Of a stretch of 64,000 nt of DNA, positions 6,150 through 8,273 are shown piece after piece. Each line of letters opens with the position of its first letter. Position 1 is the first letter of the stretch. The notes beneath the pieces are model-generated. The model did no database searches. It worked only from the letters and a program-made list of their open reading frames with translations, and had not been told where the DNA came from. Origin of the DNA: Sphingobacterium populi (GTDB lineage: Bacteria > Bacteroidota > Bacteroidia > Sphingobacteriales > Sphingobacteriaceae); NCBI RefSeq assembly GCF_001586775.1, contig NZ_LQXS01000006.1, positions 62,001 through 126,000 on the forward strand, written 5' to 3'. The position numbers were made by a program, and so were the translations under genes.

Positions 6150-6415
6150 GTTTCTCACGTATTTCAGCGCTCTTTGTTAAAGATAGGCCAACGAAACAAA
6201 TTGCAGCAAACCACGTTTTAGTTACAAATGGAAGAACATCAGCACTAAATGATAAGGGGGCACATGCATCAAAAAATAAGCTCATTGTCAATTAGATAGC
6301 GAAAACACAACCTGAATCACATACATTTCACAAAAAATCCAGTACGTTTGACATTATTTTCATAAATTAAGTAAGCAACAAAGGGTTACTATTTTAGCTA
6401 ATTACGTATTAATAG

Positions 6416-7009
6416 GTGAGTAATATTAGAAACATATTGCCAAAAGAGATCGACGACTTGTCTTTATTAAAAGGCATAGCCAATCGCGATAACCGAGCTA
6501 TTTTGCAACTGTATAAGTTGCATTACCCGTATGTGGAGCGGATGATCTTGAATAACAACGGATCGAAAGACCAAGCTAAAGATGTCTTTCAAGAAGCTGT
6601 TATGGTATTGTATGATAAGGTTACTGGACAAGGCTTCGTACTAGAAAGCAAGCTAAAAACGTTTCTATATGCAGTAAGTCGCAGATTGTGGCTGAAGCAG
6701 CTAAGCAAGAAATCGAATAACCATTATTCGATTGAGCAAGATGGATTAGAAGAAAGCTTAGATCTTAACGAGGATTTGGAATTGCATGAAGTGCAGGAGC
6801 AGCAATTTGAGAAAATGGAAAGCGCGCTGCGCGTATTAGGCGAACCTTGTCAAAGTATATTGACGGACTTTTATTTCCGTAATAAGTCGATGCAAGACAT
6901 TTGCGAAAAATTTGGTTATACCAATACGGATAACACCAAAACGCAAAAATATAAGTGCTTGCAAAGATTGAAAAAATTATTTTTCAGTGGAAACCCGCAC
7001 GATGCCTAG
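6416..7009 (+). CDS. RNA polymerase sigma-70 family factor (ECF type)
   Basis: The 197-residue product has sigma region 2 near residues 25-75 (YPYVERMIL, then KDVFQEAVMVLYDKV) and region 4 near 135-190 (ILTDFYFRNKSMQDICEKFGY, a helix-turn-helix), joined by an acidic linker. It lacks regions 1 and 3, as in extracytoplasmic-function factors. The start is GTG at 6416: the codon just before it in frame is the stop TAG, and the next ATG falls inside region 2. No SD sequence is seen. The gene 72 nt downstream encodes a membrane protein with an anti-sigma-like N-terminus fused to a protease, probably its regulator. Confidence 0.9.
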   Translation: MSNIRNILPKEIDDLSLLKGIANRDNRAILQLYKLHYPYVERMILNNNGSKDQAKDVFQEAVMVLYDKVTGQGFVLESKLKTFLYAVSRRLWLKQLSKKSNNHYSIEQDGLEESLDLNEDLELHEVQEQQFEKMESALRVLGEPCQSILTDFYFRNKSMQDICEKFGYTNTDNTKTQKYKCLQRLKKLFFSGNPHDA

Positions 7010-7081
7010 CTTATATCCCTGCCTCGCATTCGGACGATTCTGACTGGATGTGGTGAAACAGACCTTCAAAAACAACGGACG

Positions 7082-8161
7082 ATGGGAAAATGGACTTTAC
7101 AAGAATTTCTGGAAAAAGCCGATAGGTATTTGGCGGATGAGCTAAATATAGAAGAGCGCGCGGAATTCGATCGATTCCGTGTGGAGAATCCCCTTTTTGA
7201 AGAAAAATTTCAACAACATCAAGCGCTAATTAGCGACATGATGCAGTACAAGCGACGAGCAGAATTCAAGCAATCGCTGAATGATGTGCTTGTACAAAAT
7301 TACCAAAGTAAAGCAGTTTTCAGACGCATGTGGAACGTGCTACGCATTAATGGAGTAGCTGCTGCCGTTGTTGCGATATTGTCTTCTTTGGCTACTTTAT
7401 ACAGCACTGGGTATTTTTCAACCATCAAAAGAACCACTTCTGACTACAGTGCTCTGCGCCGGGAGGTAAACAATGTAAAACGCAATGTTAATGCACAGCA
7501 TACTGCTATCAAAAACATTAACAATAGCCAAAGTGAACAGCCAGATATGCATTATGGTGCTACAGGTTTCTTACTGAACAAAAATGGGTACGTAGTAACG
7601 AATTATCACGTAGTAAACGGTGCAGATTCTGTACATCTACAAAATCGCTTAGGAGAATCGTACAAAGCCGACATTATCTACAAAGATATGACGAAGGATT
7701 TGGCAATACTTCATATCAACGATGGTGAATTTACACCAAGTAGAAATATTCCGTATTCATTCCGCCGACAAAATCTAGATTTAGGAGACGACATCTTTAC
7801 CATTGGTTATCCTCGCGACGAGGCCGTATATGGCGAAGGTTATCTAAGCTCGGCCACTGGTTATGCAGGCGATACTTTAGCTTATCAGATCTCTATTCCG
7901 CTAAACCCTGGTAATAGTGGCGGTCCTGTTTTTGATCATTACGGAAACATTATCGGCATTATTTCTGGAAAGCAAAAAGGCATTGATGGCGCGGGCTTTG
8001 CAATTAAGACCGAAGCATTGATGAATGCGCTTAAAGATATTCCTGAGGAGGTGTTAAGAGGCGGTCTAGAGCTCAGCGAAAAAAATTCGATGAGCAGCCT
8101 TAGCCGTACGGAACAGATCAAGAAATTACAAGATTTCATCTACATTGTCAAAGTATATTAA
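7082..8161 (+). CDS. Membrane-anchored trypsin-like serine protease with anti-sigma-like N-terminus
   Basis: In the 359-residue product, residues 1-85 are charged and helical with the pattern DRYLADELNIEERAEFDRF, like the cytoplasmic part of Bacteroidota anti-sigma proteins. A single membrane segment covers about 91-110, then a polar, possibly coiled linker to about 155. A chymotrypsin-fold domain spans about 157-320 with an intact triad: His176 (TNYHVV), Asp206 (KDLAIL) and Ser279 (NPGNSGGP). No PDZ domain follows; a 40-residue tail ends the protein. In E. coli the comparable parts, RseA and DegS, are separate proteins. Its place right behind a sigma gene suggests it holds or releases that factor. 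The protease call is firm; the anti-sigma role is inference. Confidence 0.85.
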   Translation: MGKWTLQEFLEKADRYLADELNIEERAEFDRFRVENPLFEEKFQQHQALISDMMQYKRRAEFKQSLNDVLVQNYQSKAVFRRMWNVLRINGVAAAVVAILSSLATLYSTGYFSTIKRTTSDYSALRREVNNVKRNVNAQHTAIKNINNSQSEQPDMHYGATGFLLNKNGYVVTNYHVVNGADSVHLQNRLGESYKADIIYKDMTKDLAILHINDGEFTPSRNIPYSFRRQNLDLGDDIFTIGYPRDEAVYGEGYLSSATGYAGDTLAYQISIPLNPGNSGGPVFDHYGNIIGIISGKQKGIDGAGFAIKTEALMNALKDIPEEVLRGGLELSEKNSMSSLSRTEQIKKLQDFIYIVKVY

Positions 8162-8190: not shown

Positions 8191-8224
8191 AAAGAGGCTC
8201 ATAACTATAGTTATGAGCCTCTTT
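8191..8224. terminator. Bidirectional palindromic terminator
   Basis: A perfect 34-nt palindrome (half-site AAAGAGGCTCATAACTA) sits between the protease stop and the convergent peroxiredoxin stop. A CTTTTTATTT tail follows on the plus strand and AAA precedes on the left, so it suits both directions. Confidence 0.85.
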
Positions 8225-8273
8225 TTATTTGTCAGCATCAATATCAATAAAGATTGTGATGTGATACTTGCTC

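Follow-up and report, generated by a model that had tools for sequence, protein, structure and literature searches.

In the window (the whole 64,000-nucleotide stretch of Sphingobacterium populi DNA that was analysed), an ECF-type sigma factor gene is followed by a gene for a predicted one-pass membrane protein, in which a cytoplasmic helical domain and a trypsin-type protease domain are joined in one chain. With a confidence slightly above even, the pair is interpreted as a sigma-E-like envelope-homeostasis switch, in which the anti-sigma factor and a DegS-like site-1 protease are parts of one molecule. Should the protease act within the chain that bears it, the sensor, the first-cut protease and the anti-sigma factor of the sigma-E pathway would be merged in a single protein. 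Almost all genomes searched in the window's family and in two further families have the pair, its promoter is legible, and by sequence its regulon is very small, so that sensing, cutting and output are testable via one serine and one promoter. The features of the locus, all on the + strand, are as follows.

6384..6389, +, -35-like GGTTAC, sigma promoter with predicted autoregulation (pattern match, own genome)
6406..6412, +, -10-like GTATTAA, 16 nt past GGTTAC (pattern match)
6416..7009, +, ECF-type sigma factor gene, GTG start, 197 aa (TIGR02937 match)
7082..8161, +, predicted membrane anti-sigma/protease fusion, 359 aa (ORF with Pfam and NCBIfam matches)
7082..7336, +, cytoplasmic helical domain, predicted anti-sigma, residues 1-85 (AlphaFold2; weak zf-HC2)
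7352..7411, +, transmembrane helix, residues 91-110 (hydrophobicity)
7445..7519, +, heptad-patterned stalk, residues 122-146 (mean hydrophobicity of 353 homologues)
7553..8041, +, trypsin/HtrA-like protease domain, residues 158-320, beyond the membrane (Pfam, conservation, model, fold matches)
7607-7609, +, His176 of the catalytic triad
7697-7699, +, Asp206 of the catalytic triad
7916-7918, +, Ser279 of the catalytic triad
8084..8158, +, conserved C-terminal helix and strand replacing a PDZ domain, residues 335-359 (conservation; AlphaFold2)

The sigma factor belongs to the ECF group by its score of 62.9 bits against the NCBIfam sigma70-ECF model TIGR02937 (cut-off 42.9), and reached 22.9 against Pfam Sigma70_r2, slightly below the cut-off of 24. 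It was the single close sigma match in its own genome, the four other matches having 21–28 percent identity. Among the named relatives, the best match was to Sphingobacterium corticibacter (88 percent identity). An earlier reading made from the sequence alone had described an ECF sigma gene followed after 72 nt by a membrane protein, and the two window ORFs (6416–7009 and 7082–8161), together with the TIGR02937 score, bear this out.

Prevalence of the fusion was estimated by means of a profile built from ten sequences (E ≤ 1e-30). Within the window's order, 298 of 300 genomes gave a match, and these all belong to the window's family. In a search of the genus itself, the fusion protein was present in 60/60 genomes, one of the alignments being in two pieces within one open frame. 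The sole misses in the order, G196 and G294, are possible natural losses, and one of these is a single contig. A second family matched in 140 of 147 genomes, a count which includes G811 and G854 (protease-only or short) as well as G849 and G769 (alignments starting at profile position 71–73); a third in 19 of 61, one of the 19 being protease-only; and a fourth in 60 of 60. In the phylum-wide sample 37 of 395 genomes matched, eight of these with protease-only or partial hits. Viral contigs scanned with the window protein contained no relative.

In total, 420 loci were taken, duplicates included, and 414 of these yielded an ORF matching the profile. A sigma homologue lay directly upstream on the same strand in 404 of the 414, which is the gene adjacency of a class I (RseA/ZAS-like) membrane anti-sigma factor. 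From the ten sigma-less loci, four were at contig ends (L044, L129, L139 and L141; L044 and L129 are apparently the same contig, and L139 is a fragment), and six encoded related proteases without the anti-sigma part (L038–L041, L186 and L230; contexts read for four of the six). The strict linkage suggested for checking by the sequence-only reading therefore holds wherever the contig continues and the anti-sigma part is present, and conservation and linkage across families together make the pairing more than chance.

Removal of duplicates left 353 distinct sigma/protease pairs from seven families (141, 131, 60 and 18 pairs, plus 3 from three others), with the named loci counted into the window's family without individual check. 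Residue 90 is encoded 170–474 nt past the sigma stop in these pairs, and no gene can therefore lie between sigma and fusion. With start codons chosen by computation, the median distance between the sigma stop and the first ATG past sigma was 10 nt; in 90 of 404 loci this ATG coincided with the stop or preceded it. In the window, the sigma frame runs open through the 72-nt gap, and a read-through product of the two genes was considered; with frame offsets divided 136/115/102 over the 353 pairs it is unsupported. In genome G038 (locus L046) the sigma gene is broken into two reading frames, by either a real mutation or a sequencing error.

The fusion protein was modelled by AlphaFold2 with a mean pLDDT of 81.1 and a pTM of 0.57. 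Its single membrane helix, placed at about residues 91–110 also by the sequence-only reading, recurs as a hydrophobic segment in the homologues, with a Kyte-Doolittle 19-residue mean of at least 1.6 in 343 of 353 and of 1.26–1.59 in the other 10. From this layout, the N-terminus is taken to be cytoplasmic. The best-conserved parts were the protease domain, the last 20 residues and part of the membrane helix; the rest of the cytoplasmic part was more variable across the 353 homologues.

The protease domain matched Pfam Trypsin_2 over residues 160–293 (E 2.4e-24) and was modelled with blocks of pLDDT 73–95. His176, Asp206 and Ser279 were identical in 353/353 distinct pairs, and no PDZ domain was matched in Pfam at E ≤ 10, with merely a 39-residue tail past residue 320; an intact triad without PDZ had likewise been noted from the sequence alone. 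The trypsin fold with its His-Asp-Ser triad is that of the DegS/HtrA (S1C) proteases, and the score against the DegS model itself (TIGR02038) was 69.3 bits, below the cut-off of 422.95. The nearest solved folds in Foldseek were mostly DegS without PDZ, with HtrA1 ranked first at an equal E-value. The invariant triad and the DegS-like fold make the anatomy fit the earlier proposal of RseA and DegS functions in one chain; homology to RseA was not significant.

Beyond the protease domain, a C-terminal helix (342–350) and strand (353–358) were modelled in blocks of pLDDT 94. A similar tail is present in trypsin-domain relatives without the anti-sigma part (L038, L039, L040 and L186), so that its presence does not depend on sigma control; since such relatives exist without a sigma neighbour, the protease may have an independent role of earlier origin. 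Between membrane and protease, the stalk was modelled at a pLDDT of about 47, helical at low confidence. Mean hydrophobicity over the 353 homologues peaked at residues 122, 125, 129, 132, 136, 139, 143 and 146, and the strongest period was 3.5–3.6 residues, as in coiled coils. This heptad pattern suggests that the protein forms oligomers. HtrA proteases and DegS act as trimers, with which a self-associating stalk is consistent.

On the cytoplasmic side, residues 1–70 were modelled in ten-residue blocks at pLDDT 85–97, falling to 53–59 beyond, and form a confident three-helix domain. In Pfam, six of the 16 members compared showed weak similarity to zf-HC2, with a lowest E-value of 0.00099 overall and of 0.44 for the window protein; the highest-ranking Pfam family for the latter was the unrelated viral DUF848, below its cut-off. 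Alignment of E. coli RseA with the domain by hhalign was not significant (probability 0.2 and 1.4 percent). The anti-sigma-like character given to residues 1–85 in the sequence-only reading is thus less firm than the other features of the locus, its helical fold being confidently modelled and its profile matches weak.

Contact with sigma was approached by modelling sigma, the in-frame gap and residues 1–88 as one chain, with the stop taken as a residue solely for modelling. The chain model (mean pLDDT 73.8, 54 of 310 residues under 50) had a moderate pTM of 0.64. By Foldseek, its rmsd was 10–17 Å to sigma in the ECF anti-sigma complexes 6dxo, 8z6g, 1or7, 6in7, 4nqw and 5uxx, versus about 20–25 Å to ECF polymerase complexes among the matches listed; non-ECF anti-sigma complexes (FlgM, RsiG) were at 19–24 Å. 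Whole-chain TM-scores were low, and the single Foldseek match at E ≤ 0.001 was a polymerase-bound sigma. In a second structure comparison the Z-scores of anti-sigma-bound and polymerase-bound structures were similar (about 7–9.4), at a level that for helical models may reflect merely a common arrangement, and the rmsd trend was mostly kept, the polymerase-bound 9m9e being 15 Å from the model. No anti-sigma chain was among the matches listed in that comparison, whose coverage was mainly of sigma residues 9–196. The model favours a compact, anti-sigma-bound-like arrangement of sigma; in this form, the complex prediction proposed in the sequence-only reading places sigma nearer to its anti-sigma-bound structures in ECF complexes than to most polymerase-bound ones, at moderate pTM.

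Direct coupling analysis was performed on 342 of the 353 pairs, 11 rows having been dropped for gaps (L046 with its split sigma, eight of the family with a shortened domain, L194 and L205). Couplings above 3 SD made up 0.98 percent of all sigma/anti-sigma couplings versus 0.55 percent of those between sigma and protease, i.e. ca. 1.8-fold, yet the top inter-protein coupling was between sigma and protease, and joins parts that should not touch across the membrane. When partners were swapped within clusters all blocks dropped, protease controls included.

In one family, by reading of the sequences, 5 of 18 loci keep helices 1–2 of the cytoplasmic domain, and the other 13 (L168, L174 and L219–L229) have lost them. 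These 13 form a natural deletion series, in which the sigma gene, the promoter and the divergent lipoprotein gene remain; L219 has one TGA within the match. If the domain is an anti-sigma, the long third helix must suffice there.

Upstream of the sigma gene the motif GGTTAC-N15/16-GTATTAA was found. A strict pattern of GGTTAC, 14–18 nt and TATTAA occurred before sigma in all 77 named loci and in 302 of 351 distinct loci, and a relaxed pattern in 324 of 349; shuffling of two-base blocks gave an expectation of 1.35, and the reversed pattern matched 8. Conservation of the motif at this position makes autoregulation of the sigma factor likely. Genome-wide, 80 sites were found in 36 own-genus genomes versus 12 for the backward control; 23 genomes of other families had 4 sites versus 8 backward.

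From these 84 sites, 56 distinct ones were read: 14 preceded sigma, 35 preceded a small lipoprotein ORF and 7 neither; of the last 7, three were from other families and one was truncated at a contig end. The lipoprotein-like ORFs at the 35 sites were 45–110 aa long and started 20–70 nt downstream. Their products begin with a signal-peptide-like segment, carry a lipobox-like cysteine and end in Asp-Ser/Thr-rich tails, and were left unnamed by the Pfam search. Against the NCBIfam PG1828-lipoprotein model (cut-off 50), the window genome's own copy scored 44.5 bits, below cut-off, two relatives 44 and 42.4, and copies from three other families 31, 22.9 and 19. The own copy (64 aa, match G000:C3:570893-571072) is located away from the sigma locus and has the same type of motif, GGTTAC-N16-GTATTAA, 46 nt before its ATG. 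Here CTAA stands in place of the pattern's NNTT, which is why the gene was found via its protein and not by the pattern.

In other genera, a gene of this type is placed next to sigma in divergent orientation, often with a mirrored promoter. A small lipoprotein-like ORF was present at that position in many loci (237/349 loci, versus 10 of 1380 random positions; by family 51/141, 111/128, 56/60, 18/18 and 1/2), and the relaxed promoter pattern was mirrored in 174 of 349 loci. The predicted output, which the sequence-only reading had not noticed, is likely to be the sigma operon plus small lipoproteins, by sequence a very small regulon. One genome (L435) has three sigma-type promoters in a stretch of about 500 nt, two of which are followed by small lipoprotein genes that are nearly identical to each other.

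In the proposed switch, the cytoplasmic helical domain would bind sigma at the inner membrane, and the stalk would, by its heptad pattern, join two or three copies. An envelope signal would then lead the periplasmic protease to cut the stalk next to the membrane, in its own chain or in a sibling. By analogy with the sigma-E and RsgI systems, a site-2 protease would next cut in the membrane and cytoplasmic proteases would clear the remainder; one match to an M50 site-2 protease gene was found in the window's genome. The freed sigma would fire the conserved GGTTAC-N15/16-GTATTAA promoters of its own operon and of the small lipoprotein genes. A more specific version, possible although clearly less than an even prospect, is that the one-piece anti-sigma/site-1 protease reports on the small lipoproteins themselves, in a closed lipoprotein-homeostasis loop present in several Bacteroidia families. 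The protease might here be quieted by the C-terminal tail or by properly delivered lipoprotein, and failed lipoprotein supply or sorting would cause the cut of self or sibling, after which the freed sigma would make more lipoprotein.

The fusion might instead be an anti-sigma factor whose protease serves other envelope clients, as an effector co-produced with the switch and retained alongside it, another protease making the first cut and freeing sigma. We regard this as rather unlikely. It would agree with the similarly tailed trypsin-domain relatives, in which the fold works outside sigma control and near which the DNA read contains no sigma homologue, and no cleavage site was identified in the stalk. 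However, the two parts are kept in one chain with an invariant triad in 353 pairs, and the position of the protease as a site-1 enzyme fits a cut in the sigma pathway.

An ordinary anchored HtrA-like protease, placed in the operon just as a sigma target, with residues 1–85 as its anchor and sigma held elsewhere, appears improbable. Effectors are often included in autoregulated ECF operons, as this explanation requires, and the partial loss of the cytoplasmic domain in one family and the non-significant RseA alignment also suit it. Against it are the 353 pairs without an intervening gene, the confidently modelled helical domain, and the chain model, in which sigma is closer to the ECF anti-sigma-bound than to most polymerase-bound forms. 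Only a slight chance is given to the opposite role, that of a positive partner which recruits or stabilises sigma at the membrane. An ECF sigma gene and, after it, a gene for a one-pass membrane protein whose N-terminus is cytoplasmic and helical is the arrangement of membrane anti-sigma factors, and this argues for an inhibitor.

The one-piece switch resembles the sigma-E/RseA/DegS/RseP system in this gene layout, in a protease fold nearest to DegS without PDZ and to HtrA1, and in the presence of a site-2 protease gene. In E. coli, however, RseA and DegS are two proteins and DegS has a PDZ sensor, where the present system has one chain and no PDZ; RseA gave no significant match, and the main predicted output is a small lipoprotein. 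Some membrane anti-sigma factors undergo autoproteolytic processing (the subject of one title cited in PMC10202637) and work with TonB-dependent receptors; unlike the fusion, they are not known to have a protease domain. MarP and the HtrA membrane proteases share the trypsin-like domain, and to our knowledge have neither an anti-sigma part nor a partner sigma; the score of the fusion against the MarP model was 87.2 bits, far below the cut-off of 250.

The nearest precedent for an anti-sigma factor that starts its own cleavage, as proposed here, is RsgI of the SigI systems. The extracytoplasmic part of RsgI cuts first, by a special autocleavage domain, followed by RseP and then an AAA+/ClpP protease (ClpXP) (PMC12203970); one title cited in that paper calls the domain SEAL. 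RsgI therefore differs in having an autocleavage domain in place of the trypsin-type protease, and its domains had no Pfam match in the fusion at E ≤ 10. A class I anti-sigma factor is recognised next to 6 percent of the ECF genes of Bacteroidetes, versus 32 percent over all phyla (PMC7406223). The ECF-type promoter motif described for Flavobacterium psychrophilum (PMC9723704) has a CGT box and differs from the GGTTAC/GTATTAA motif. No description of a sigma factor paired with a protease-bearing anti-sigma factor was found among the titles and abstracts listed by searches of open-access papers, a set without the main 2021 ECF classification.

Two minor observations concern the ends of the operon. 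In the window (6406–6418) the GTG start of sigma is just 3 nt past the -10-like GTATTAA, and in Sphingobacterium loci GTG or TTG keeps this near distance to the -10 element; the sigma message may be leaderless or almost so, or the true start codon may be further in. At the other end (~8194–8226), an inverted repeat followed by a T run, identified by eye 3′ of the protease gene, is terminator-like, and this putative terminator is seemingly common to the protease gene and a convergent peroxiredoxin-like gene.
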